This document shows, in pieces, positions 46,688 to 60,140 of a stretch of DNA of 64,000 bases (positions are counted from its first letter, which is position 1; each line of letters starts with the position of its first letter). The DNA is from Sulfitobacter sp. M05 (lineage in GTDB: Bacteria > Pseudomonadota > Alphaproteobacteria > Rhodobacterales > Rhodobacteraceae), in contig NZ_JABEDH010000002.1 of assembly GCF_029285175.1 (NCBI RefSeq), positions 124,001-188,000 on the forward strand, written 5' to 3'. The translations under genes were made by a program, and so were the position numbers. Under the pieces are notes generated by a model, which worked only from the letters and a program-made list of their open reading frames with translations, was not told the DNA's origin and did no database searches.

Positions 46688-46753
46688 CTCACGTTTATCC
46701 AAAGAACCGTGATTTCATTCCCGTTCCACCAGCCATGCCCGAGGTCGCCCGCC

Positions 46754-47752
46754 ATGAAGACAACTAGAAACGCAATTCTGGCCGTGCTGGCCGTCTTGGC
46801 GGTTGCCGCTCTGCTGATCTGGACCCTACGCCAACCCACAACCTACCTGGTACAGGGCGAGGTAGAGGCGACACGTATCGACCTTTCAGCTCAGGTCACG
46901 GCGCGGGTGGCACAAACCCCTGTCAGCTTTGGTGACCGCATTCGCGCCGGCGATGTCGTTGTTCAGCTGCACAGCCCGCAACTTCTGGCACAGCTCTCTG
47001 CTGCGCAGGCCGGTGTCGGTGTGGCCCAAGCCAACCGCGATCTGGCGTTTTCCACCCGCCCCGAAACAATCGCCGCCGCCGAGGCCCAGCTGGCCAAGGC
47101 CGTTGCCGATGTCGAACTGGCGCAAAGTAACTTTGACCGTATCAATAAACTGCGTGCGGATTCGGTTGTGTCACAAGCCAACTTTGACCGGGCCACCAAC
47201 ACGCTGGACGCCGCGGTTCAGGCACAGGCCGCAGCGCAGGCAAATCTGGATCAGGCACGCAATGGCACCAGCGCAGAGCAAAAGGCCGTCGCCACAGCAC
47301 AGGTCACACAAGCAGAGGCAAATCTGGCCCAGCTTCAGGCCAATGTCGATGAATTGACAGTCACCTCCCCGATTGACGGTCAGGTCACCACCCGCACTGC
47401 CGAAGTCGGCAAATTGTTCAGCGCCGGCGCGCCGTTGATTTCCATCGTTGACGTGGATCACGCATGGTTCACGTTCAATCTGCGCGAAGACCTTTTGCAG
47501 GGGCTGGAAATCGGCCAGCCGCTGGAAATCCGTGTTCCCGCACTCGGACAGGACCACGCCGCAATCCCCGCGCGGATTACTGCCATCAACGTGGAAGGCA
47601 GCTATGCCAACTGGCGCGCGACCAAGGCGACCGGCGATTTTGATCTGCGTACGTTTTCCGTCCGTGCGCAACCTGTCGAGCCTATCGTCGGGTTGCGCCC
47701 GGGCATGAGTGCGCTGGTTGACTGGTCCACCACCAACCGCAACGCCGATTAA
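46754..47752 (+). CDS. HlyD-family periplasmic adaptor (YhiI-like)
   Basis: A 332-residue membrane-fusion protein. One N-terminal membrane anchor (residues ~7-24) leads to a split lipoyl domain around a long Ala/Gln-rich alpha-hairpin coiled coil (~85-205), then the beta-barrel (LTVTSPIDGQVTTRTAEVGKLF; AWFTFNLREDLLQGL). It would link inner-membrane transporters to an outer-membrane channel. Start ATG 46754 follows GAGG. It is first of three export genes. Confidence 0.92.
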   Translation: MKTTRNAILAVLAVLAVAALLIWTLRQPTTYLVQGEVEATRIDLSAQVTARVAQTPVSFGDRIRAGDVVVQLHSPQLLAQLSAAQAGVGVAQANRDLAFSTRPETIAAAEAQLAKAVADVELAQSNFDRINKLRADSVVSQANFDRATNTLDAAVQAQAAAQANLDQARNGTSAEQKAVATAQVTQAEANLAQLQANVDELTVTSPIDGQVTTRTAEVGKLFSAGAPLISIVDVDHAWFTFNLREDLLQGLEIGQPLEIRVPALGQDHAAIPARITAINVEGSYANWRATKATGDFDLRTFSVRAQPVEPIVGLRPGMSALVDWSTTNRNAD

Positions 47753-47756
47753 TCCA

Positions 47757-48950
47757 GTGCGTGACCGCCAGCCTCCCCCCGGCCTGCGCCGCATATTGGG
47801 CCGCGAATTGCGCCAGATTGCGACGCGCCCTGCGTTGGCCTTTATGCTGGCACCAATGCCGATGATCATCTTTCTGGCGCTTGCGGCGGTCTTTGCTCCG
47901 GGTCTGCCGCGCGAACTGCCGGTGGCGGTGGTGGATCTTGATGGCACAACCCTGTCGCGGCAGGTGGTGCGCATGGTCGATGCCGCCTCTGACGTGGCCG
48001 TGGCCCAACAGGTGCCAAATCTCAGCGAAGCGCGACAGGCCCTTGTCGCGCGCGAAGCCTATGCAATTCTGGTGATCCCGCAGGATTTGGAACGCAATCT
48101 GCAACTTGGCCAAAGCCCCGAGGTTGTGATTTTTTCCAACAGCCAGTTCCTGCAATCTGGCGGAACCGCCGCCCGCAGCATGGCCACCTCTGTGTCTACA
48201 TTCGCGGCCGGGGCATCGCTGCGGCTGCTTGAAACGCGGGGCATCGGCACAGATCGTGCGATGGACCTGATCACCCCGATCCCGGTGCAGCAAAGCCCGT
48301 TGTTCAACCCCTCGCTGGACTACATCCAGTTCCTTTTGTCGGCGATCGTTCCGACAGTGATGCAGATTTTTATCTGCGCCGCTGCGGTTTTGTCCTTCTC
48401 GCGTGAACGTCATTCGACTGGCGGCATGTCCCGCCTGATGCGCCTTGCAAAGACACCAACCAACGCAATCATCGGCAAGCTGTTGCCCTATACCGTTCTG
48501 GGTACGCTGGTTCTTTTGTTCGGTGACGTGCTGCTGTTCACCGTCTTCGGCGCAGATTTTCGCGGCAATGTGCCGGTGTTTTTCCTGAACGGGTTGCTGT
48601 TTATTCTGGCCTGTCAGGCACTGGGTGCCCTTATTGCAATGATTGCGCAGGATACGACCGGTGCGTTGGGCATGATGGCAGTGATTGTCGCCCCCGCTTT
48701 CGGCTTTGCCGGAGTCAGCTTTCCACGCTTCGGCATGACCGAATTTTCGCAGGCATGGGGCGCGGTTATTCCGCTGACACCTTATCTAGAGCTGCGTACG
48801 GATCAGACCCTGCGCGGTGCCCCGCTGGAATATTCCCTGCCAACGATGGCCATTCTTTTTGCGCTCTTGGTTGTCTTCGCCACCCTCTTATGGATCACCC
48901 TGCGCAAGGCCGCACGCCTTGCTGCCACAACATCAGAGGTGGACCTATGA
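47757..48950 (+). CDS. ABC-2 type permease, first of a pair
   Basis: A ~397-residue permease of the ABC-2/YhhJ type. There is a first membrane helix at ~30-50, a large extracytoplasmic domain (ELPVAVVDLDGTTLSRQVV), then five helices in the last 200 residues. The start is probably GTG 47757, four bases past the hlyD stop; the frame stays open upstream. It has no ATP-binding domain. It overlaps the second permease by 4 bases. Confidence 0.88.
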   Translation: MRDRQPPPGLRRILGRELRQIATRPALAFMLAPMPMIIFLALAAVFAPGLPRELPVAVVDLDGTTLSRQVVRMVDAASDVAVAQQVPNLSEARQALVAREAYAILVIPQDLERNLQLGQSPEVVIFSNSQFLQSGGTAARSMATSVSTFAAGASLRLLETRGIGTDRAMDLITPIPVQQSPLFNPSLDYIQFLLSAIVPTVMQIFICAAAVLSFSRERHSTGGMSRLMRLAKTPTNAIIGKLLPYTVLGTLVLLFGDVLLFTVFGADFRGNVPVFFLNGLLFILACQALGALIAMIAQDTTGALGMMAVIVAPAFGFAGVSFPRFGMTEFSQAWGAVIPLTPYLELRTDQTLRGAPLEYSLPTMAILFALLVVFATLLWITLRKAARLAATTSEVDL

Positions 48951-50086
48951 TTGCCCTGCACCGGTTCACAAGCGCGCTTGCCCTCGCCTACCGTCACCTG
49001 TTGGGAGATTCCAGCGCGCGCATGACGATGATTGCCGGCATCCTAATCTATAGCGCGCTTTATCCGCAGCCCTTCGTCGGTGAGGTTGTGCGCGATGTGC
49101 CTGTCGCCGTGATTGATCAGGACAACTCGACCGAAAGCCGCAAGTTCTTGCGCCGGATCGACGCCACCGATCAAGTCACCATTGCCACAACAGTGCCCAA
49201 TATGGCCGCCGCCCGCGATGCGTTCTTCCGCCGTGATGTCTATGGCATCGTGATTATCCCTGCCGGTTTTGAGCGCGATCTGTCTGCCGGCGTGCCGTCC
49301 CCCATCGCGGCCTACGGCGATGGCAGCTACCTGTTGGTCTACTCCAATATCATGGGCGCGGTCACCAGCGTCGCCCGTGCCATGGGCACCGAAGTCAACT
49401 TTGACCGTCTAACCGCAACCGGTATGGACGCCGGACAGGCCCGCGCGGCCCTGTCCCCGGTCAAAGTGACCAATATTCCCGTGTTCAACCCACAGGGCGG
49501 CTATGCCAGCTATATCGTGCCCGCCTCCTTTGTTCTGATCCTGCAACAGACCCTGATGATGGGCATCGGGCTGCTACATGCAGGGCGCCGGCTGCCCACT
49601 GGAATGCGCATGTGGGCCACACCAATTGCCTACATCACGCTCTATCTGGGATGGGTTGTCTTTACCCAGCTGATGTTGCCGGTGTTCTACGGCATCCCGC
49701 GCACAGGGGATTTTGGCACGCTGATGCTGATTGCCCTGCCGTTCCTATGTGCCTGCGCGGCCATGGGTTTTGCCATCGCCTTGCTGATACCCTCACGCGA
49801 AGGCGTGGTGTTCTTTTTGGTGGTGATGGGGCTACCGCTGTTCTTCCTATCTGGCATCGCATGGCCCGCCGAGGCAATTCCCGATCAACTGCGGAATATC
49901 GCAATGCTGGTGCCTTCCTCGACCGCCATTTCCGCTTTTGTCGCGGTCAACCAGATGGGCGCCGCACCGCAAGACATCATCGGTGCCGTGGAGCACCAGA
50001 TCATCCTGGCCTTCGGGTATACTGCGTTGGCCTTTGCGATCTACCCGTTCACCAAGACGCGGCTGGAAAGACACCCGCAACCATAG
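48947..50086 (+). CDS. ABC-2 type permease, second of a pair
   Basis: A 379-residue permease homologous in layout to the preceding one (DVPVAVIDQDNSTESRKFLRRIDATDQV is the paralogous ectodomain start), with five C-terminal helices. ATG 48947 overlaps the first permease stop. The pair probably forms a heterodimer. In E. coli yhiI-rbbA-yhhJ an ATPase is fused or adjacent, but none is visible here: the next genes downstream are on the other strand and belong to another unit. Confidence 0.88.
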   Translation: MIALHRFTSALALAYRHLLGDSSARMTMIAGILIYSALYPQPFVGEVVRDVPVAVIDQDNSTESRKFLRRIDATDQVTIATTVPNMAAARDAFFRRDVYGIVIIPAGFERDLSAGVPSPIAAYGDGSYLLVYSNIMGAVTSVARAMGTEVNFDRLTATGMDAGQARAALSPVKVTNIPVFNPQGGYASYIVPASFVLILQQTLMMGIGLLHAGRRLPTGMRMWATPIAYITLYLGWVVFTQLMLPVFYGIPRTGDFGTLMLIALPFLCACAAMGFAIALLIPSREGVVFFLVVMGLPLFFLSGIAWPAEAIPDQLRNIAMLVPSSTAISAFVAVNQMGAAPQDIIGAVEHQIILAFGYTALAFAIYPFTKTRLERHPQP

Positions 50087-50105: not shown

Positions 50106-50570
50106 TCAAAAATCCCCCGGTGCGCATTGCAGACACACCAGCCCCTCTGCGCGCCATGCTTCGACAACCGAATTACGATCATCCACAACCAACCACGGTG
50201 CCAACCCATCCGCCTGCATCTCAGCCAAGGCGCGGCGTTTGACTTCCGGATCGCTGGCTTCGTCTTGGTCAGCAGCACGCAGGTACACCCCGTCGAACGG
50301 CAGGTCATGCATGCGCAACCACGCAATTGTATGCGCAGCCCACCCTCTTGGCCGACCCGAACAGATCACAATCGTCTCACCGCTTTCTTTCAACCGCCGC
50401 AACAGCTTTGCAACCGGTTCGATCAGGGGGGCCGTGGCCATTGCCGCGTGAAACTCATCCCAGTGCTTTTCCACCCCATGCACAAGATGTCCAAGCCGTT
50501 GCGCGTCAAATTCCGCCAATGTGCCATCCACATCAAAAACGACACAGGGTGTCAGATCAGTTACAGTCAT
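50106..50570 (-). CDS. HAD-family phosphatase, T4 Pnkp 3'-phosphatase-like
   Basis: A 154-residue compact HAD hydrolase. The nucleophile motif is D13-V-D15-G-T in VVFDVDGTLAE, motif II is ICSGRP, and the final acidic motif is LVVDDRNSVVEAW. The short length and the SGRPRG segment recall the phosphatase domain of T4 polynucleotide kinase, which acts on 3'-phosphates, but other phosphoesters are possible. It is last gene of the six-gene ABC-transporter unit; its ATG overlaps the preceding stop. Confidence 0.85.
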   Translation of the reverse strand: MTVTDLTPCVVFDVDGTLAEFDAQRLGHLVHGVEKHWDEFHAAMATAPLIEPVAKLLRRLKESGETIVICSGRPRGWAAHTIAWLRMHDLPFDGVYLRAADQDEASDPEVKRRALAEMQADGLAPWLVVDDRNSVVEAWRAEGLVCLQCAPGDF

Positions 50571-51112
50571 AGTTGCTTTTCCTCGAAGTGATGGCCGTGT
50601 TTCTCGAATAGGATCGGTGTGGCATTCGGTGGCCTGTCCCCGACACAGCCCTTCCCCCAAAGCACACGCGCCACGCGGATGATGCCGGAATGACAGACAA
50701 GAACCGGCAGGGCATCCTCACTTGCGGAACAGATTTCGCATATGGCTTGCTGCACACGCGCCAACATCGCAGGCCAGCTTTCGCCACCTTCCGGCGTGTC
50801 CTTGCGCGGTGGTTGAACCCCGATCGGGCACCCCTCGAACACGCCCCAATTGCGTTCCCTCAGCCCGTCGTTCAGGACAAAGCCACGCCCCGGAAACGCC
50901 AACTTGCAGGTATCCTGAGCCCGGGCCATCGGGCTGGCAAACACCGCAATCCTGTCAGGCCACGCCTGATCCGCCAATGCCTGCGCCTGCCTGCGCCCCA
51001 GCGGGCTTAGCGGCACATCCGTCACCCCTGCAATAATCTGGTTCGCATTGGCGGTGGTTTCACCATGGCGGATCAGGCAGAAATCTCTGGCTGGAAAAAA
51101 ACACTCCGTCAC
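50567..51112 (-). CDS. histidine phosphatase family protein
   Basis: A 181-residue phosphoglycerate-mutase-like phosphatase. R15-H16-G17-E18 provides the phospho-histidine, ASPMARAQDT the second Arg, and LVCHSGIIR the C-terminal catalytic His. The substrate is unknown. It overlaps both neighbours (the MBL-fold gene and the HAD gene) by 4 bases, so it is translationally coupled to a transporter and two other hydrolases. Confidence 0.9.
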   Translation of the reverse strand: MTECFFPARDFCLIRHGETTANANQIIAGVTDVPLSPLGRRQAQALADQAWPDRIAVFASPMARAQDTCKLAFPGRGFVLNDGLRERNWGVFEGCPIGVQPPRKDTPEGGESWPAMLARVQQAICEICSASEDALPVLVCHSGIIRVARVLWGKGCVGDRPPNATPILFEKHGHHFEEKQL

Positions 51113-52176
51113 AGGCGCACCGGATCATGCATAAAAACCTCTACGCCCAGATCCTCGATAAGGTAATCCTCCGGCTGAGTGCAAAAGGCAGGGGCAAATC
51201 GTTTCGCGCCAAGGCGCTTTAACATCTTGATCTGGTCCCGCAGCGGCGGGTGGACATTCCAGCGCTGAAAATACCCCCCCGGCACGCTGCAAATGCCACG
51301 GGCGTGGGCCGTCATATGACCGGTAAAGACGACATGCGCATCATGGCCCAACCGTCCGCTTTCATGCCATGCCCGCACATACCCCCAAGCGGCACCACCA
51401 TCCGCATTTGGTGTGTCACAGATCAGAAAACGCGCATGTTCCATCGGGCTGCGCTCCAGCAGCGGTGCAATTTCCTGAACCTGCACGCCAAGCCCCGGAC
51501 TGGCCAATGCCGCCCGCAAAGTGGTCTGGCATTCCGGGTCAAGCATGACACTGGCCGATCCGAAACGACGGATCAAATGCAGAGCCATCTCCCCCGCGCG
51601 CCCGGAAGGAGGCACCGGCAGCAACACCTGCCCGTCAAGCCCGTCTATCAACTTGTCCAGCGCGGCAAAGCGGGCGGTCTGGGGCACATCGTCAAGGTGA
51701 TAGGAGCAATCCAGAATAGCCGTCGCCGCTGGCGGAGGGACGTCGAAAGGGAACCAGTCTGATTCCTCGGACCAGTCACCGGAATAGAACAATCCATCAC
51801 CAATGGCGAAATGCATCCAGACACCACCCATGGCGTGGCCGTTGCGTCCCGTGTTTAAGCGCACCCCGTCAATCACCGTTTCGCCCTGCTCGGGCAACAG
51901 CCGGACCACAGCCGCCGGCGGCAATGCCTTAGCAGTACGTGCCGTTGCATAGATCGGCGATCCGGCTTCGACCACATGGGACGCACCACCAATGTGATCA
52001 ATGTGATCATGGGTGATAAAGACCGCGTCGACACCCTCCAGCCATGCAGGATTGAACTGGGCATGAGCCTCTGGACCAAAGCCGCAGTCCAGTAACCAAC
52101 GCCGATTGCCTGTGTTCAATTGCATGCACGCAGGCCCCTTGTCTCCGATACCGGAGAGTACTCTTACACTTTGCAT
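51109..52176 (-). CDS. metallo-beta-lactamase-fold hydrolase, beta-CASP-like
   Basis: A 355-residue MBL-fold protein. The binuclear metal motif T-H56-x-H58-x-D60-H61 is followed by FYSGDWSEES and a later VVFTGHMTAHARG, reminiscent of beta-CASP nucleases, which process nucleic acids; MBL-fold phosphodiesterases such as PhnP share the metal site. The exact substrate is open. It starts directly after the ATPase stop (TAA then ATG), with GAGGAA as ribosome site, and overlaps the phosphatase gene by 4 bases. Confidence 0.82.
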   Translation of the reverse strand: MQSVRVLSGIGDKGPACMQLNTGNRRWLLDCGFGPEAHAQFNPAWLEGVDAVFITHDHIDHIGGASHVVEAGSPIYATARTAKALPPAAVVRLLPEQGETVIDGVRLNTGRNGHAMGGVWMHFAIGDGLFYSGDWSEESDWFPFDVPPPAATAILDCSYHLDDVPQTARFAALDKLIDGLDGQVLLPVPPSGRAGEMALHLIRRFGSASVMLDPECQTTLRAALASPGLGVQVQEIAPLLERSPMEHARFLICDTPNADGGAAWGYVRAWHESGRLGHDAHVVFTGHMTAHARGICSVPGGYFQRWNVHPPLRDQIKMLKRLGAKRFAPAFCTQPEDYLIEDLGVEVFMHDPVRL

Positions 52177-53220
52177 TTATTCCTCGTAGAACGCCCATGG
52201 GGTGGTTATCGTCAGGCCAAGCTGCATCCCGACATCGAATTTTGCCCGCGTCTCTGCCATCAATCGGGTGCCGCACTCCGCCACCGTTTCCAGCAGGTAT
52301 TTCCCACCCAGATAGGTGACCCGTGCAACGCGCGCGCGCAGATCGCCGGTCTCGGTGATGGTCAGGTTTTCGGGGCGTAGACAAACGTGACTAGGCCTTT
52401 CATGATTGCTCTGAACCTCCACCCGTGCCCCCAACACATGACCGTGTGCGGCCACATCCGAGGTCTCAACACTGCGCACCGGCACAACCGTACCGCGGCC
52501 TACAAACTCGGCGACGAAACGGTTCTTTGGGCGCTCGTACAGGTTTTGCGGTGTGTCGAATTGCTGAATCTGTCCACGGTCCATCACCGCAATCCGATCC
52601 GCCATTGCCATGGCTTCAGCCTGATCATGGGTGACATAGACCATCGTTGCACGGGTGCGTTTGTGAAAATCGGTAAACACCGTTTGCAACGTCGCCCGCA
52701 ACGCAACGTCAAGGTTGGCCAGCGGTTCGTCCAACAACACCGCATCCGGATCAGAGACCAGACAACGTGCCAGCGCGACCCGTTGCCTCTGACCACCGGA
52801 CAACTCTGACGGCATCCGGTCGGCATAGGCCGAAAGCCCCGTCGCCTCTAGCGCCACGTCGGTCTGAGCAGCAATCTCTGCCTTGGAAAATCGGCGAATT
52901 TCCAGCGGGTAGGACACGTTGCGCCGGACAGTCATATGCGGCCAAAGCGCGTAGGACTGAAACACAAACCCCATATTGCGGTCTTCCGACGGCACCATCA
53001 TGCCGGTATCCCCGTTTGCAAGCTGCCGATCACCGATGCGGATTTCACCGGCGCTTGGCATCTCGAACCCTGCCAACAGCCGCAACAGCGTGGTTTTTCC
53101 ACACCCCGACGGCCCCAGCAGCGCGATGAACTCGCCATCCTCGAAACATGTGGTGATGTCTTGCAACGCGGGCGCACCCGAAAACGTTTTGCCGACGGAT
53201 GATAAGGCTATGTTTGCCAT
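52177..53220 (-). CDS. ABC transporter ATP-binding protein (AfuC/PotA-like)
   Basis: A 347-residue importer ATPase. Walker A GPSGCGKTT is at residues 36-44, the signature LSGGQRQR near 139, Walker B LLDEP near 160, and a C-terminal TOBE domain (FVGRGTVVPV onward) typical of the iron/thiosulfate/phosphonate/spermidine class. It overlaps the permease gene by 13 bases. With the fused permease and binding protein it makes a complete importer. Confidence 0.95.
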   Translation of the reverse strand: MANIALSSVGKTFSGAPALQDITTCFEDGEFIALLGPSGCGKTTLLRLLAGFEMPSAGEIRIGDRQLANGDTGMMVPSEDRNMGFVFQSYALWPHMTVRRNVSYPLEIRRFSKAEIAAQTDVALEATGLSAYADRMPSELSGGQRQRVALARCLVSDPDAVLLDEPLANLDVALRATLQTVFTDFHKRTRATMVYVTHDQAEAMAMADRIAVMDRGQIQQFDTPQNLYERPKNRFVAEFVGRGTVVPVRSVETSDVAAHGHVLGARVEVQSNHERPSHVCLRPENLTITETGDLRARVARVTYLGGKYLLETVAECGTRLMAETRAKFDVGMQLGLTITTPWAFYEE

Positions 53221-54911
53221 GGAACTACTCCTTTCGGGAATCGACGCGACAACAGCTGAACAGCGATCATCAACACCATGACCACCAGAACGATGGTCAT
53301 CGCCAATGCGCTGGCCATTGCGGTTTCACCGCTGTCATCCAGATTGAAAATGACGACACCCAGAGTCTCTGTCCCCGATGACCACAGCAGGGCCGATACC
53401 GTTAACTCGTTGAACGCCGTCAGAAAAACAAGAATTCCGCCCGCCGCTGCGGCAGGGGCAGACAAGGGTACGATCACGTCACGCAACCGCTGGAATAGGC
53501 TGGCCCCAACCGATTGGGCGGCCTCGCCCATTGCCGGGTCAAGCTGTTTCAGGCTGGCCTGAACGGGCCGGAACATCACCGCAAAAAACCGCGCCAGATA
53601 GGCCAGGAAAATGATCCAGATCGTACCGTACAGCGTCGCTTCGGTGAACGGCAGGTTGATCAACAACAGGATCATCGCAATCGACAAAACAACACCGGGC
53701 AGAGCATAGGGCAGGTCCAGCAGGCTATCGAACACCCGAGAAAGTCGCGTTGGATTTCGCTCCATCAGCCATGCCAGCGGCAGACAAAGGACCACCAGTA
53801 CAAAGGCCGCCCCAAACGCGAGGCCAAAGGAATTTGCGAAGGCCCGTGTTGTCACCGGTTGGCGAAACAGAACCTCCCACCACGAGGTCAACGTCACCGT
53901 GTCCACACGCAGCGGCACGCCGTAGGCCGGCACCAGCGACGTCGCCAGCAAACCGAACATCGGCAATACAAGGATCACACAGACAACCGCCCAAAGCAGG
54001 ATTTCCACCGGCAACCGTACAGCCCCCAAAGGGATTGCCAACGGACGCGACGTCGCGCCAACCAGAAACACTTTTTGCCGGGTCTGGAAAAACCGCTGCA
54101 CCAGAATGCCGACAACCGCCACAACACCGATCAACATGGCCAGAACCGAGACTTCGGCAAGCACGCTGGTGCCCAATCCTGCAAGCTTTTGATAAACCAG
54201 CGTCGGCAACGTCACATACCCTGCCGGAATACCAAGCATCGCAGGGATGCCAAAATTACCAAGCGCCGTAACAAACGTGATCGCGATGCCGGCGGCAAGG
54301 CTCGGCAGGGTCAGCGGCATCACCACCTGCCACCATGTCCGCAATCCCCGTGCGCCACTGATCCGCGCGGCCTCGACCACATCCTGCGGGATTGAACGCA
54401 ATCCGGCACGCAGGGTCAGAAAAATGATCGACATGTGCTGAATACCCAGCAAAAGGATGATCCCCTCTGCCGAATATAGAGGTTGCGGCGTCCCAAGCGG
54501 CGGCGCAATCCCCAATGTTTTCAAAAGCACCGACGACGGCCCCATGATCTGGGTCCACGAAAGCGCGGTGATCTGGGGCGGGATCATCATCGGGATCATC
54601 AAACAGAACACCAAGGCCCCTTTGGCCCGCAAATCTGTCAGCGCCACCAGAAAGGCAAACGCCGCCCCCAGCACCAGAGACACCACCGTCCCAAGCCCTG
54701 CCGTAACCAATGAATGCTTGAGCGCCGTCAAGGTCGCGGGTTGGGACAACACTTCGGAGGCAAGCGTCAGGCCGATTGCCCCCTGATCCGCAAACCCCTC
54801 GACAAACAGGCGCAGCACCGGTGCCAACGTCAAACAGATCGCAACCACCAGAATAGCACCAAGCAGCCGACCCTCTGACCGGCTGCCCCCTTTTTGCATC
54901 GCGAAACTCAT
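53208..54911 (-). CDS. ABC transporter permease, two fused membrane domains
   Basis: A 567-residue permease with about twelve membrane helices and two copies of the binding-protein-dependent transport domain. The EAA loops are visible as EAARISGARGLRTWWQVVMP (first half) and GEAAQSVGASLFQRLRDVIVP (second half). Fused permeases of this size are typical of the iron(III)/AfuB/2-aminoethylphosphonate group. Its start overlaps the binding-protein stop at 54911. Confidence 0.95.
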   Translation of the reverse strand: MSFAMQKGGSRSEGRLLGAILVVAICLTLAPVLRLFVEGFADQGAIGLTLASEVLSQPATLTALKHSLVTAGLGTVVSLVLGAAFAFLVALTDLRAKGALVFCLMIPMMIPPQITALSWTQIMGPSSVLLKTLGIAPPLGTPQPLYSAEGIILLLGIQHMSIIFLTLRAGLRSIPQDVVEAARISGARGLRTWWQVVMPLTLPSLAAGIAITFVTALGNFGIPAMLGIPAGYVTLPTLVYQKLAGLGTSVLAEVSVLAMLIGVVAVVGILVQRFFQTRQKVFLVGATSRPLAIPLGAVRLPVEILLWAVVCVILVLPMFGLLATSLVPAYGVPLRVDTVTLTSWWEVLFRQPVTTRAFANSFGLAFGAAFVLVVLCLPLAWLMERNPTRLSRVFDSLLDLPYALPGVVLSIAMILLLINLPFTEATLYGTIWIIFLAYLARFFAVMFRPVQASLKQLDPAMGEAAQSVGASLFQRLRDVIVPLSAPAAAAGGILVFLTAFNELTVSALLWSSGTETLGVVIFNLDDSGETAMASALAMTIVLVVMVLMIAVQLLSRRFPKGVVPWQT

Positions 54912-55879
54912 TACTCAGCGCCAAACAGCTCTGAAAATTTCGCTTTGTTTGCATCCGCATTCTCAAGCGCGACAGCAGGATCGAAATCCATCAGCTTGAT
55001 ATCTGCGCGCGCGGGGAAACCTTCGGGCACCCCCATGCCGTCACGTGCCGGGATATATCCCATATCAAGCACCAGATCCTGACCTGCCTCGCTCAGCAAG
55101 AAGTCGACGAATTTCTGCGCCCCTTCCACATTCTTGGCAGAGGACATAATCGCCACCGGCTCTGTCACATAAGACACGCCTTCTTTCGGGAACACGAATT
55201 CGATCGGGGAACCTTGCGCCTTGTTGCGAATGGCAAGGAAGTCGACAACCATACCATAGGGCTTTTCGCCTGACGCGACTGCCTTGAAGGTGCCACCGTT
55301 GCCACCCTGCGCCCGCGCATCATTTTCCGCCAGCTTCTCGTAGTACCCCCAGCCAAGGCTATCTGCGCCTGTCAGCGTTGCCAGATGGATCAACGCCGCA
55401 CCAGAGTACAACGGGGATGGCATGGCGATTTGCCCTTTGACCGCCGCGTCGGTCAGATCACCCCATGACGCAGGAGCGTTTTCGATACCAGTGTTGTAAA
55501 CGATGCCGGTCGTGATCAGCTTGGTCGAATGGTAATACCCTTCGGCAGAGTAAAGCGCGCTGTCATACCGCGCGGCCTCGGGGGATTTGTAGGCGGTCAA
55601 AAGGCCGTCTTGGGCCATCCCTTCCAAGGTCACGGTATCGGCAATCAACAGAACATCCGGCTGTGGGTTGCCAGCTTCGATTTCGGCGCGCAGCCGTGCC
55701 ATCAGCTTGGTTGTGCCGTCACGAACCCACTCGACTTCGGTGCCCGGATTGGCGGAGATAAATGCATCAACGGTCTTTTGCGCATCCGCATTGGGTTGCG
55801 AGGTATATAGCGTAATCGTATCCGCCATTGCGGTGCTGGCCAAAAGCGCAAAGGCTGTTGTGGTAAGGAAGTTTTTCAT
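54911..55879 (-). CDS. ABC transporter substrate-binding protein, iron/AfuA/phosphonate group
   Basis: A 322-residue periplasmic binding protein with a cleavable signal (MKNFLTTTAFALLASTAMA, cut after residue 19). The fold resembles the FbpA/AfuA/PhnS cluster (ITLYTSQPNADAQKTVDAF). The tandem tyrosines that bind iron in FbpA are not evident in the GNGGTFKAVASGEKPYG region, which argues against iron. AfuA relatives bind hexose phosphates and PhnS 2-aminoethylphosphonate. With three hydrolases encoded in the same operon I favour a phosphorylated ligand. A palindromic operator lies just upstream. Confidence 0.88.
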   Translation of the reverse strand: MKNFLTTTAFALLASTAMADTITLYTSQPNADAQKTVDAFISANPGTEVEWVRDGTTKLMARLRAEIEAGNPQPDVLLIADTVTLEGMAQDGLLTAYKSPEAARYDSALYSAEGYYHSTKLITTGIVYNTGIENAPASWGDLTDAAVKGQIAMPSPLYSGAALIHLATLTGADSLGWGYYEKLAENDARAQGGNGGTFKAVASGEKPYGMVVDFLAIRNKAQGSPIEFVFPKEGVSYVTEPVAIMSSAKNVEGAQKFVDFLLSEAGQDLVLDMGYIPARDGMGVPEGFPARADIKLMDFDPAVALENADANKAKFSELFGAE

Positions 55880-55897
55880 GGGGCTCTCCTGAAATTT

Positions 55898-55913
55898 GCT
55901 TTCGTACGAAAGC
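55898..55913. promoter_or_regulatory. 16-bp perfect palindrome, probable DeoR-family operator
   Basis: GCTTTCGTACGAAAGC is fully self-complementary and lies 19 bases upstream of the binding-protein start. The TTCG..CGAA core is typical of GlpR/DeoR-type operators, and a DeoR gene is divergent here. It is the likely repressor site for the transporter operon. Confidence 0.75.
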
Positions 55914-56028
55914 TGTTCACGGCTGCCTTATTCTCCCCTTTCGCAACAGATTCATGACAAAAAAGTAACAATAATAATATATTGCGGTATTTCGGACCAC
56001 ACCCTAACCTCGACTTAACCCAAGGTTG

Positions 56029-56042
56029 TTTTCGAAGGAAAA
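56029..56042. promoter_or_regulatory. second candidate operator at the DeoR gene start
   Basis: TTTTC-GAAG-GAAAA is an inverted repeat overlapping the ribosome site of the DeoR gene, and shares TTTCG with the palindrome at 55898. It could allow autorepression. Confidence 0.35.
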
Positions 56043-56044
56043 TC

Positions 56045-56812
56045 ATGAGGCGGACGGACCTAACCCAACGACGCGACAGCATCATCACGCTATTGTCCCA
56101 GAACGACGCCCTGTCCGCTGCTGAGTTGTCGGGCCGTCTTTCGGTCTCTGTCCAAACTATCCGGGCCGATCTTCGCGAATTGGATGATGCCGCATTGGTG
56201 CTGCGGCGAAATGGCAAGGTCCGCCTGCGCCAGCAAAGCGAAAACATCGGTTACCTGCCCCGCGAAAGCATCGCGCGTCAGGAAAAACAACGGATCGCCC
56301 TCGCTGTTAAAAACCTGATTCCGACGGGCGCGCGGGTCGCCCTTGGCACCGGCACCACGGTCGAGAATTGCGCGCGCCTTCTGGCTTCTCACGAAAACCT
56401 GTTCGTCGCCTCAAACAGCCTTCACGCAGTCTGCGCCCTGCAAAACGCTGCGGGGGTCACAGTCGAAATGGCCGGCGGCGCTGTGCGTATGCGCGACCTC
56501 GACCTAATCGGCGCCGCCGCTCTTGAATTCTTTATGAAATACCGCGTGGACTATGCGGTCTTTAGCTGCGGCGGCCTGTCGCCATCTGGCGCGGTGATGG
56601 ACTATAATTCAGATGAGGTTACCGCCCGCAAGGCCATTTCGAATTGCGCCAAGACAACAATTTTGGTTGTCGACAGCGGCAAGGCGAACCTTGATCTGGC
56701 CTGCCAGCATGTGCACCTGTGGCAGTACGATATTGTCGTAACCAGTGCCGAACTCGCGGCGGATGTTATGCGAAACTGCGCCAAAAATGCCTGCCGGATC
56801 ATTCAGGTCTGA
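56045..56812 (+). CDS. DeoR/GlpR-family transcriptional regulator
   Basis: A 255-residue regulator. The N-terminal winged helix (ELSGRLSVSVQTIRADLRELDDAALVLR) is followed by a DeoRC sensor domain (GTGTTVENCARLL; VFSCGGLSPSGAVMDYNSDE; VVDSGKANL). Most characterised family members bind a sugar phosphate or related phosphorylated metabolite. ATG 56045 follows GAAGGA. It is divergent from the transporter operon across 165 bases containing the palindromes, and so probably controls it. Confidence 0.93.
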   Translation: MRRTDLTQRRDSIITLLSQNDALSAAELSGRLSVSVQTIRADLRELDDAALVLRRNGKVRLRQQSENIGYLPRESIARQEKQRIALAVKNLIPTGARVALGTGTTVENCARLLASHENLFVASNSLHAVCALQNAAGVTVEMAGGAVRMRDLDLIGAAALEFFMKYRVDYAVFSCGGLSPSGAVMDYNSDEVTARKAISNCAKTTILVVDSGKANLDLACQHVHLWQYDIVVTSAELAADVMRNCAKNACRIIQV

Positions 56813-56849: not shown

Positions 56850-59800
56850 TCAGCCGCGCACGCACATCCGCAGTCCCTTGGCGATCCAGCCGCGTGTTTC
56901 AGCCGGATCAATCACCGCGTCTATTTCATGGGTCGACGCAACACTCATTGCCCCGCCACGTTCATAAAGCCCTGAAACCAAACGATTGTACAAGGTTTCG
57001 CGGACCACCGGATCGGTTTCCGCTTCCAGCTCCTTGCGATATCCAAGCTGCACAGCCCCCTCCAGTCCCATCGGTCCGAATTCTCCTGTCGGCCATGCAA
57101 TCGCAAACGCCGGTTCGCCCAGACTGCCCGCCGCCATCGCTTGCGCCCCGATGCCATAGGCCTTGCGCAGACAGACAAAGAACATCGGGGCCGTCAGGTT
57201 TGCCCCTGCCGAAATCAGATCACAAGCGGCAGCAACCGCGCCCTGTTCCTCGCTTTCGGGCCCCACCATGAACCCCGGTGTGTCACAGAGCGACAAAACC
57301 GGCAGATCGAACTTTGCACAAAGGGTCAGAAAACGCGCGCCCTTGGCCGAGGCCGCCGCATCCAAAGCACCGCCAAGATGCTGGGGGTTGTTTGACATCA
57401 CCCCCATGGGGCACCCCTCTATGCGCAAAAACCCGGTGATCATGCCCAACGCATGATGTCCACCCAGTTCCATAAAGCTGTCGACATCCCCTAAGGCTTC
57501 GATCACCGGTCGAATGCAATATGCCTTCTTGCGGTTCTCCGGAACCACATGGCGCAAAAGCCGCTGGTCGGATGCTTCCCAGGCCGCACTATCACCTTGG
57601 AAATATGACAAGACCTTTCGCGTTGCGCTGATGGCCTCATCGTCATCCTGTGCCAGAACATCGACCAGCCCGTTCTTGGCATGCATCAAGGCCGGTCCGA
57701 TGTCCTTGGGATGATAGCTGCCGATGCCACCCGCTTCGATCATCGCGGGACCGGCCAGACCGATCCAGCTGTTACGCGTCGCAATGCGGATATCACCCGC
57801 GCCGAAAATCGCCGCGTTCCCAGCAAAACAAAACCCCGAATTCACGGTAATTTTGGGGCCCCAACCGCGCAACCGCGCAAATTCCGCAAATGTCGTCACC
57901 TTAAGCCCCGACTGCACGGTCTGCGCGAAATCGTCATCGTTTGGGCGCCCGCCACCACCTTCCGTAAAGAAAATAGATGCCAACCCCTGCGCGCGGGCGA
58001 CTTCCAACATCCTGTCGGTCTTGAGATGGCCAAAGAACCCCTGCGTTCCCGCCATCACCGTCGAATCATATGCCAAAAGGGCGACCTGCGAACGTGTCTC
58101 GGGGAAATGGCCAGCATTCACCGAACCGACACCGGTAACGATCCCGTCAGCGGGTGAGGCATCAATCAGCGCCTCCAGCCCCAGTTTGCGGCGCTGTCCG
58201 GCCAGCACAAGCTGACCGTATTCGTGGAAATCCCCGCCCACACACAGGGCGTCGATGATCTCGCGGGTTGTGCGTTGATCCCTGTCGCGACGGCGCGCCA
58301 CGGCCTTGGGCCGGTTTTCATCCAGCGTCCGCGCCACCCGCGCGCGCAGCGCCATAAGGTCATCGCGGATATGATCCGGATCAGGCAACGCCTCCTCAGT
58401 CGAGATCTCGGCCAGCCTATCATCCGGCGTAAAGGTCAAAACCGGCGCGCCCAAAGCAACGGTATCCCCAGCACCAACAAAAATATCTGTCACTACTCCG
58501 CCAGCTTCGGCAAACATTGTATGCTGCATCTTCATGGCCTCGACCACGGCAATGGCCTGTCCTTTCGCGATGCAAGCCCCAACCTCGACATGCATTTCTC
58601 GGATCATGGCCTGCATCGGTGCGCGCAGTGCTTCGGTGCCAGCGGGCAAATCCATTGCACTGCCAGCATCCTCGGCCTGCACATTGAAGAACCGTTCCCG
58701 CCCGGTTTTGGCTTTCAGCAGGTCGGTGATCTGTGTGTCCAGCGTACGCACATCAACCCGCCAATCTGCGACAACCGGCAAGCACAAAAGCCCACGTAAA
58801 AAGTTGATGTTGGTTTCGACACCGGCAATCTGGAATTCCGACAGCGCCCGCTCCGCTTTGGCAAACAACCGGCCCAGATCGCCGGATTTTTCATGCACCA
58901 CCAGCTTGGCCAGCATCGGATCAAAATTCGGGTTTGTGCTGTAGCCGGGATAGGCATAACCGTCGATCCGCACCCCCGGACCACTGGGCGGTGCATAGCC
59001 CGTCAACCGCCCTCCCGTAGGGGTAAAGCTGGTATCGCTCTCCAGCCGCTCGGTGTTGATACGGGTCTGCAAACCATACCCGACAGGGACCGGCGGCGGA
59101 CCCTGTAATCCAACATCAGCAAGCCGCGCACCCGAAGCAATCGCCAGCTGGATTTCCACCAGATCAAGACCGGTGATTTCTTCGGTAATGGTATGTTCGA
59201 CCTGAATGCGCGGATTGGCCTCGATGAAATGGAACGCACCACTGGCCTCAAGCAGGAACTCTACTGTACCAAGGCCACGATACTGGCAGGCGCGCCCGAT
59301 GGCGATTGCCGCATCCAGCAGACCGGCACGAGACACATCAGGCAAAAACGGTGCCGGCGCCAGTTCGATCACCTTTTGATGGCGGCGCTGCATCGAGCAA
59401 TCACGTTCCCACAGGTGGGTCACATCACTGCCATCCCCGACAATCTGCACCTCGATATGGCGCGCGCCCTCAAGAAGCTGCTCGGCATAGAGGGCCCCGT
59501 CACCAAAGGCGGTTTCCGCTTCGGTTGTGGCTTGAGAGAATGCCGCCTCAATCTCGGCCCGCTGGCGGACAACACGCATGCCCCGCCCGCCACCGCCGTT
59601 AACCGCCTTGATCATCAACGGGGTGCCTTTTTGGGCGTCAAAATACGCCACAGCATCTGATACCGACGCAAATGGATCGGAACCGCGCAGCACCGGAACA
59701 CCCGCTCGTTCCGCCAGCGCCCGCGCAGAAACCTTGTCGCCCTGCATCCGCAGCGTCCCGGCCTCAGGCCCAACGAATACCAGCCCCGCGTCAGCGCAGG

Positions 59801-60077
59801 CCTGCGCAAAATCTGCCCTCTCGCTCAGGAAACCGTATCCAGGATGCACCGCGTTGCAGCCGCTTTCCAACGCTATCGCAATCAGCGCGGTGGCATCCAA
59901 GTATCCCGCAACCCCGCCCAGAGGCAGCATGCGCACCTCGTCGGCGTGTTTTATATGCAAGGAAGTTGCGTCATCGACGGTGTGGACCGCAACAGTCTTG
60001 ATCCCCATCCCCGCAGCACTGCGCGCGATACGTATCGCAATCTCGCCACGGTTGGCGATCAACAGTTTCCCGATCAT
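56850..60077 (-). CDS. single-chain biotin-dependent acyl-CoA carboxylase (LCC-like)
   Basis: A 1075-residue protein uniting all activities of a biotin carboxylase complex. Biotin carboxylase is at residues 1-~450 (MIGKLLIANRGEIAIR; ATP-grasp GGGGRGMRVV). A linker leads to the biotinyl domain with the carrier Lys in EAMKMQHT near 515. Carboxyltransferase N and C domains run from ~600 to 1075. The size and order resemble the homohexameric long-chain acyl-CoA carboxylase (LCC) described in Mycobacterium. Substrate unknown. Start ATG 60077 follows GGGAGGG. The divergent TetR gene is likely its regulator. Confidence 0.9.
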   Translation of the reverse strand: MIGKLLIANRGEIAIRIARSAAGMGIKTVAVHTVDDATSLHIKHADEVRMLPLGGVAGYLDATALIAIALESGCNAVHPGYGFLSERADFAQACADAGLVFVGPEAGTLRMQGDKVSARALAERAGVPVLRGSDPFASVSDAVAYFDAQKGTPLMIKAVNGGGGRGMRVVRQRAEIEAAFSQATTEAETAFGDGALYAEQLLEGARHIEVQIVGDGSDVTHLWERDCSMQRRHQKVIELAPAPFLPDVSRAGLLDAAIAIGRACQYRGLGTVEFLLEASGAFHFIEANPRIQVEHTITEEITGLDLVEIQLAIASGARLADVGLQGPPPVPVGYGLQTRINTERLESDTSFTPTGGRLTGYAPPSGPGVRIDGYAYPGYSTNPNFDPMLAKLVVHEKSGDLGRLFAKAERALSEFQIAGVETNINFLRGLLCLPVVADWRVDVRTLDTQITDLLKAKTGRERFFNVQAEDAGSAMDLPAGTEALRAPMQAMIREMHVEVGACIAKGQAIAVVEAMKMQHTMFAEAGGVVTDIFVGAGDTVALGAPVLTFTPDDRLAEISTEEALPDPDHIRDDLMALRARVARTLDENRPKAVARRRDRDQRTTREIIDALCVGGDFHEYGQLVLAGQRRKLGLEALIDASPADGIVTGVGSVNAGHFPETRSQVALLAYDSTVMAGTQGFFGHLKTDRMLEVARAQGLASIFFTEGGGGRPNDDDFAQTVQSGLKVTTFAEFARLRGWGPKITVNSGFCFAGNAAIFGAGDIRIATRNSWIGLAGPAMIEAGGIGSYHPKDIGPALMHAKNGLVDVLAQDDDEAISATRKVLSYFQGDSAAWEASDQRLLRHVVPENRKKAYCIRPVIEALGDVDSFMELGGHHALGMITGFLRIEGCPMGVMSNNPQHLGGALDAAASAKGARFLTLCAKFDLPVLSLCDTPGFMVGPESEEQGAVAAACDLISAGANLTAPMFFVCLRKAYGIGAQAMAAGSLGEPAFAIAWPTGEFGPMGLEGAVQLGYRKELEAETDPVVRETLYNRLVSGLYERGGAMSVASTHEIDAVIDPAETRGWIAKGLRMCVRG

Positions 60078-60140
60078 CGGTAGCCCTCCCAAGCATCCCG
60101 TTTCCCGTTTGATGCCTAAAGTGGTGACCAAACGACGGTC

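Follow-up and report, generated by a model that had tools for sequence, protein, structure and literature searches.

A candidate phosphodiester scavenging operon joining an AfuA-like importer to a beta-CASP-type enzyme in Sulfitobacter sp. M05

The DNA analysed here, hereafter the window, is a stretch of 64,000 nucleotides of Sulfitobacter sp. M05 contig NZ_JABEDH010000002.1, and at 50106-56812 it carries six genes for an ATP-binding cassette (ABC) importer and three hydrolases together with a divergent gene for a DeoR-type repressor. On balance, we favor the interpretation that these genes form a self-contained phosphodiester scavenging operon, combining import, cleavage by a metallo-beta-lactamase (MBL) enzyme of beta-CASP type, dephosphorylation, and a repressor that senses a phosphorylated intermediate. 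The operon is real and conserved, and it is probably one functional unit; because both its synteny and its operator are conserved, the arrangement is not due to chance. No published account of it was found among the listed titles and abstract openings from searches of the open-licence literature. The operon is also present in the genome of MED193 (L042), and the accessible part of a study on the proteome of this strain under phosphate stress gives no evidence either way (PMC10132767).

According to the mechanism we propose, the AfuA-like binding protein and the ABC importer would take up a small phosphate-bearing molecule, most likely a phosphodiester, and the beta-CASP enzyme would cut this diester in the cytoplasm into an alcohol and a phosphomonoester. 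The histidine phosphatase and the PNKP-type HAD phosphatase would then split off inorganic phosphate, leaving a sugar, polyol or nucleoside for general metabolism. Both the diester substrate and the order of the steps are presumed. The DeoR protein would occupy a palindrome a short way upstream of the binding-protein gene and be released by the phosphorylated intermediate, and the phosphatases would for this reason also turn off its signal.

Gene order, operator and the phosphatase slot

The six operon genes lie on the minus strand, and adjoining genes overlap by 1-13 bases or abut directly. In the order of transcription they encode a periplasmic substrate-binding protein of 322 amino acids (aa), AfuA/PhnS2-like by profile and sequence comparison (54911-55879); a fused two-domain permease of 567 aa, PhnU2-like, with two BPD_transp_1 stretches (53208-54911); an importer ATPase of 347 aa with ABC_tran and TOBE_2 domains (52177-53220); the beta-CASP-type MBL enzyme of 355 aa, a predicted phosphodiesterase on the basis of profile, fold and motifs (51109-52176); a CobC-like histidine phosphatase of branch 1, 181 aa (50567-51112; PF00300, E 1.4e-29); and a 154-aa HAD phosphatase from the family of PNKP phosphatase domains (50106-50570; PF25109, 84.2 bits against a cut-off of 27.6). 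These families are consistent with Pfam and NCBIfam in profile searches. The divergent DeoR/GlpR-type repressor gene (56045-56812, plus strand, 255 aa) matches PF08220 and PF00455 above cut-off. Its open reading frame is listed from 55982, and the ATG at 56045 is the probable start, preferred because the annotated Phaeobacter inhibens homologue has 254 aa. Phaeobacter inhibens pPGA2_239 holds the same seven genes. A sequence-only reading of the window had described the tight packing of the six genes, the divergent DeoR gene and a perfect 16-bp palindrome, and all of these were confirmed where it had placed them.

In a scan by MBL similarity with one genome per species (71-91% identity, n = 34, hereafter close loci), the genes for the binding protein, permease, ATPase, MBL enzyme and histidine phosphatase were found together in every locus, so that the co-occurrence of transporter and hydrolases, which the earlier reading had proposed to look for, is indeed conserved. 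The HAD gene is present in 31 of the close loci (not in L042, L043 and L056) and the DeoR gene in 33 (not in L043). The module is accessory: a full-length MBL was detected in 6 of 36 genomes of the same genus and, by searches that scored 5-13 candidates per genome, in 22/296 of the family, 14/151 of another family of the class, 9/387 of the class, 17/397 of the phylum and 1/329 of another class, counts that include the own or centre genomes, the single match in the other class being the centre genome itself. For each of the 22 genomes with an MBL gene in the family sample, the binding-protein match lies on the same contig and starts within about 4 kb.

A wider set of 68 loci comprised 17 from plasmid records and 51 from genomes. 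By length, L068 and L124 are the same replicon, and the pairs L048/L152, L050/L153 and L040/L154 each appear to be one strain that is present in two of the sets. In 64 of the 68 wider loci, the MBL gene is accompanied by a binding protein of PhnS2-like type, the exceptions being L079, L080, L108 and L145; the substrate-binding protein label in L080 came from a 22% match and was excluded from the count. In L145 (2435-10825), the MBL and SurE genes follow Opp-type permease and ATPase genes (Pfam OppC_N, oligo_HPY). In L080 (5969-9059), the MBL gene stands beside two other ABC ATPase genes, of which the tested one showed only ABC_tran, with an RpiR/SIS gene ahead. A conjugative plasmid of Enterobacter hormaechei (L065) carries the importer, MBL and histidine phosphatase genes; upstream of them lies an IS5-like transposase gene and, at a greater distance on the downstream side, an IS1 gene.

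The probable operator GCTTTCGTACGAAAGC, a perfect 16-bp palindrome at 55898-55913, is located 18 bases from the binding-protein start codon and occurs once in the window; by simple arithmetic, a gap of this length should contain about 0.002 perfect palindromes of 16 bases. Its TTCGnnCGAA core, usually in the form CTTTCGnnCGAAAG, was observed in 42 of 47 gaps between DeoR and binding-protein genes, against 0.2 expected from shuffling. These clean gaps came from 55 loci with both genes; the gap filter dropped eight, of which seven also hold the motif and the remaining one (L058) is not properly covered. The core starts 28-37 bases ahead of the called start in 30 of the 42 gaps, and in nine the start is called further upstream. 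A second TTCGnnCGAA site is present in 10 of the 42, nine of them with the site close to the DeoR start. The five gaps lacking the operator (L081, L109, L120, L121, L122) belong to the most divergent DeoR proteins, with 35-40% identity. The exact 14-mer site occurs once in the 4.07-Mb genome, and genome-wide matches with up to two mismatches showed no excess over the reversed control (7 vs 16). With a single exact site in this genome and mismatch sites at control level, the pattern fits a dedicated local repressor, which presumably binds the palindrome and would respond to a phosphorylated inducer.

The strongest sign that phosphate removal is the selected step is the replacement of the phosphatase, because unrelated phosphatases fill one slot. 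Sixty of the 68 wider loci have one or two phosphatases, drawn from four families that share no homology (histidine, HAD-PNKP, dual-specificity and SurE): histidine phosphatase with HAD in 19, SurE in 15, dual-specificity in 13, histidine phosphatase alone in 10 and HAD alone in 3. As to the regulator, histidine phosphatase with HAD goes with DeoR in 19/19, SurE with SorC in 13/15 and dual-specificity with LacI in 7/13. The phosphatase labels follow the MBL tree (11 changes, where shuffling gave 42.5 on average), which was built from 71 of 103 rows after thinning at 88% identity and in which the window row, labelled 'none' although it has histidine phosphatase and HAD, can add one change. A branch with full support separates the SurE clade from the other rows. 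The exact trio of hydrolases that had earlier been taken as the unit therefore did not hold, as the steady part is the importer with the beta-CASP enzyme and four unrelated families take the phosphatase slot.

The catalytic motifs of these phosphatases are retained: RHG in 63 of 64 histidine phosphatases, DxDGT in 53/53 HAD, HCxxGxxR in 13/13 dual-specificity and NDDG in 15/15 SurE proteins; in the close loci, RHG is found in 34/34 histidine phosphatases and DxDGT with DDR in 31/31 HADs. The second histidine of the histidine phosphatases matched the pattern in 52/64, and inspection of the 12 misses revealed HSG in eight; the other four are ambiguous, and one of them (L137) is an unrelated 35% match. 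A Na/Pi transporter gene near five SurE-type modules (L075, L076, L138, L142 and L143; the one of L076 was checked with Pfam and has a PhoU domain) could handle freed phosphate.

Around the operon, the window encodes at 56850-60131 (minus strand) one 1093-aa protein fusing biotin carboxylase, biotin carrier and carboxyltransferase domains, and at 46709-50086 (plus strand) an HlyD-type adaptor and, after it, two ABC-2 permeases; a gene for a separate ATPase was not seen between these. A defence system was considered and rejected: four of the five proteins had no PADLOC match, and the match of the DeoR protein to a WYL regulator model (E 2.3e-7) is ascribed to its DNA-binding domain.

The beta-CASP-type enzyme and a possible nucleotide ligand

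The MBL protein was assigned to beta-CASP by profile, by a fold with an inserted beta-CASP domain, and by motifs 1-4, A and B, and the HAD protein to the PNKP family, in agreement with the beta-CASP-like and Pnkp-like enzymes of the sequence-only reading. The motif table has 109 rows, namely the window, 107 grouped relatives (including L001, the locus of the window itself) and one mixed-label row. The metal ligands of motifs 1-4 (H56, H58, D60, H61, H114, D134) are kept in 99/99 relatives with a recognised phosphatase and in 7/8 without one, D156 of motif A in 107/107 and H309 of motif B in 106/107. One relative lacking several metal ligands (L079, 7929-8999) stands beside a LacI gene without an importer and is perhaps a non-catalytic copy. 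Motif C, which in beta-CASP enzymes is His in the RNA type and Val in the DNA type, is Phe in the window protein and in 92 of 107 relatives; 14 rows, of the SurE clade, have His one place earlier, and one has a gap. If this clade is a member of beta-CASP, it would be a deviant subclass.

The relatives of the enzymes lean towards nucleotides. One possible ligand is a 2',3'-cyclic nucleotide, a dinucleotide or a very short oligonucleotide from RNA or DNA breakdown, which the beta-CASP enzyme would open or cut and a phosphatase would convert to the nucleoside. The nearest relatives of several parts act on nucleotides, among them the beta-CASP nucleases and the PNKP phosphatase family (Pfam cut-off exceeded); the HAD protein matches Pnkp1 and phage Pnkp in PDB, the sister clade carries SurE (above the Pfam cut-off for L076), and CobC is an alpha-ribazole-phosphate phosphatase. 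The dual-specificity partner matches PTP-SAK, named for RNA repair proteins, above cut-off in one of three cases. All three tested SorC regulators scored best with Bacillus DeoR, a deoxyribonucleoside regulator. However, the specificity models of NCBIfam (CobC, SurE, DeoR, RbsR, CytR) all score below cut-off, with 71 bits against 162.9 for CobC and the histidine phosphatase of the window, and this clade has lost the His that RNA-cutting beta-CASP enzymes carry at motif C. Both tested LacI regulators scored best with RbsR, GalS being ahead of CytR, PurR and UriR, and the DeoR proteins of the window clade are nearest to GlpR in three of three tests. No nucleoside gene was recognised among the recurrent neighbours, most of which lack a family assignment.

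The importer and the nature of its ligand

The best NCBIfam models for the binding protein, permease and ATPase are PhnS2, PhnU2 and PhnT2, but the equivalog cut-offs for 2-aminoethylphosphonate importers are far from reached (136.9/392.75, 188.4/593.25 and 308/457.7 bits, respectively), and the assignment as a phosphonate importer was rejected on this ground. An importer of a plain monoester or phosphonate, such as hexose phosphate or 2-aminoethylphosphonate, beside hydrolases whose substrates have no connection with it, is in our estimation unlikely. These best models and the occurrence of related importers alone in 29 genomes speak for it, whereas the MBL gene is nearly always tied to this importer and no phosphonate gene was recognised among the recurrent neighbours of the module.

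By single-sequence alignment the best match of the binding protein is AfuA, which binds hexose phosphates, and by profile it is 8x1a, deposited as an iron-compound-binding protein, followed by AfuA and the pyridoxal-phosphate protein P5PA. The public annotation 'iron ABC transporter permease' and the resemblance of the binding protein to an iron-binding family would make the system an iron(III) importer. In Fe(III)-binding proteins of FbpA type, iron is bound by a Tyr-Tyr pair. The Tyr-Tyr of the iron binder 1y4t aligns with F214-L215, and the pair is absent from all 16 aligned members, an absence which disfavors iron as the ligand; we regard iron import as very improbable. Neither of the two findings that the earlier reading had named as refuting it, a lack of conserved synteny and a strictly iron-binding protein, was encountered, iron binding being judged by sequence. 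The residues of AfuA that surround the phosphate and the sugar were taken as named in the accessible parts of PMC4546632 and PMC8427247, and were mapped with an inferred numbering offset of two. Three of seven phosphate-surrounding residues are kept (Ser37 as T56, Ser148 as S159, Gly149 as G160), and T56, S159 and G160 are invariant across the 16 members; with the same offset, the sugar contacts His205, Asp206 and Glu229 are replaced by F214, L215 and V238. The ligand thus looks like something other than hexose 6-phosphate or iron, with a phosphate partly supported.

The importer and the regulators lean towards sugar phosphates. Ranking with the nucleotide version in our estimate, a ligand that is a sugar or glycerol phosphodiester, such as agrocinopine, xanthosan or a glycerophosphodiester, is a possible alternative, and the earlier proposal of a nucleotide or cyclic phosphate gains no preference, because sugar or polyol phosphodiesters fit equally. 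In addition to the AfuA-type importer, direct precedents are found in the available parts of PMC4526662 and PMC12807533. The regulators adjoining the module across loci are of DeoR, LacI or SorC type, and include the GlpR-like DeoR of the window, for which PRK10906 (GlpR) is the best NCBIfam model with 144 bits, under its cut-off of 331. Such regulators usually sense sugars or sugar phosphates. The RpiR/SIS gene near the MBL gene in L080 and the Opp-type genes preceding MBL and SurE in L145 point in the same direction, the Opp type being that used for agrocinopine uptake. Against a sugar stand the lost sugar contacts of AfuA and the neighbours: among the 28 groups of neighbours that recur most often, recognition was limited to regulators, ABC ATPases, Na/Pi (5 loci) and FAH (3 loci), with no recurring sugar-processing or other catabolic gene, and the remaining groups occur in at most 7 loci each and mostly lack a family assignment. 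Sugar-processing genes were recognised beside a single module, that of L118 (3449-8418), where a transporter of the major facilitator superfamily and a GH31 glycosidase lie past a LacI gene divergent from the operon.

Several points weigh against the proposed phosphodiester scavenging itself. The beta-CASP proteins among the matches listed, 50 per fold search, all process nucleic acids, so that a small-molecule substrate is an extrapolation, and with Phe at motif C the second metal site may be altered. No recognised phosphatase was found in 8 of the 68 wider loci. In the binding protein, Thr150 of AfuA corresponds to Ala161, Gly38 to Thr57 and Gly185 to Asn194 (between two Gly), the alignment at Thr60 is ambiguous, and the structure prediction failed (predicted local distance difference test score 40.5). 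Furthermore, the binding protein (E 1e-60 or better) is present in 51 of 296 family genomes, 29 of them without hydrolases nearby. In these 29 places (L155-L183), neither the MBL gene nor any of the four phosphatases was found within 7 kb of the importer, L156, L161 and L181 running into contig ends; in many of them the ATPase gene is on the opposite strand. The importer is hence a wider family in which the hydrolases mark a subset, and import and processing are separable, because related binding proteins stand without hydrolases in 29 of the 51 genomes. The logic of coupled import and processing put forward by the sequence-only reading is supported.

Significance and comparison with known systems

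Tentatively, and with less confidence than for scavenging as such, we suggest that a beta-CASP nuclease fold, with Phe in place of His at motif C, was recruited as a catabolic phosphodiesterase in an uncharacterised route for an unrecognised phosphodiester nutrient, borne on chromosomes and plasmids of alphaproteobacteria and some gammaproteobacteria, with unrelated phosphatases according to lineage. If true, the recurrent cluster of 'iron permease', MBL and phosphatase, mislabelled by annotation, would gain a testable function, a nuclease fold would serve small-molecule catabolism, and a so far unidentified phosphodiester nutrient of marine roseobacters would be indicated. With two enzymatic steps and a DeoR sensor, the system would allow direct screening for the ligand.

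The AfuABC hexose-phosphate and P5PA pyridoxal-phosphate importers share the binding-protein family and some phosphate contacts with the present system, but here the sugar contacts are lost, and of the seven positions around the phosphate four differ or are ambiguous. The 2-aminoethylphosphonate importers of PhnSTU2 type provide the best NCBIfam models, and AepX and AepS are importers of the same Pfam family as this type, according to the part of PMC8316502 available to us; here, scores are below the curated cut-offs and an MBL enzyme and phosphatases are attached. Xanthosan uptake by XanT-XanP is similar in that a sugar phosphodiester is imported and hydrolysed as a nutrient, but, as far as the accessible text of PMC12807533 describes it, differs in using a TonB-dependent transporter, a 2H phosphoesterase and a ROK regulator. 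The beta-CASP proteins CPSF-73, TTHA0252 and KH-CPSF share the fold and motifs 1-4, A and B, whereas the present enzyme is shorter (355 aa), has Phe at motif C and is set in an importer operon.

The agrocinopine (acc) operon of Agrobacterium has an Opp-type importer and a GDPD-like AccF, in contrast to the AfuA/PhnS2-type importer and MBL beta-CASP enzyme found here, and it is these part types that set it apart. It is alike in comprising a product-sensing DeoR-family repressor, an ABC importer, a phosphodiesterase and a phosphatase (AccR, AccABCDE, AccF, AccG), and, in the portion of PMC4526662 consulted, the ligand of AccR is arabinose-2-phosphate, which the phosphodiesterase AccF produces, rather than the diester that is imported. 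By analogy, the present operon would work like the agrocinopine operon, with the same logic realized by different parts.

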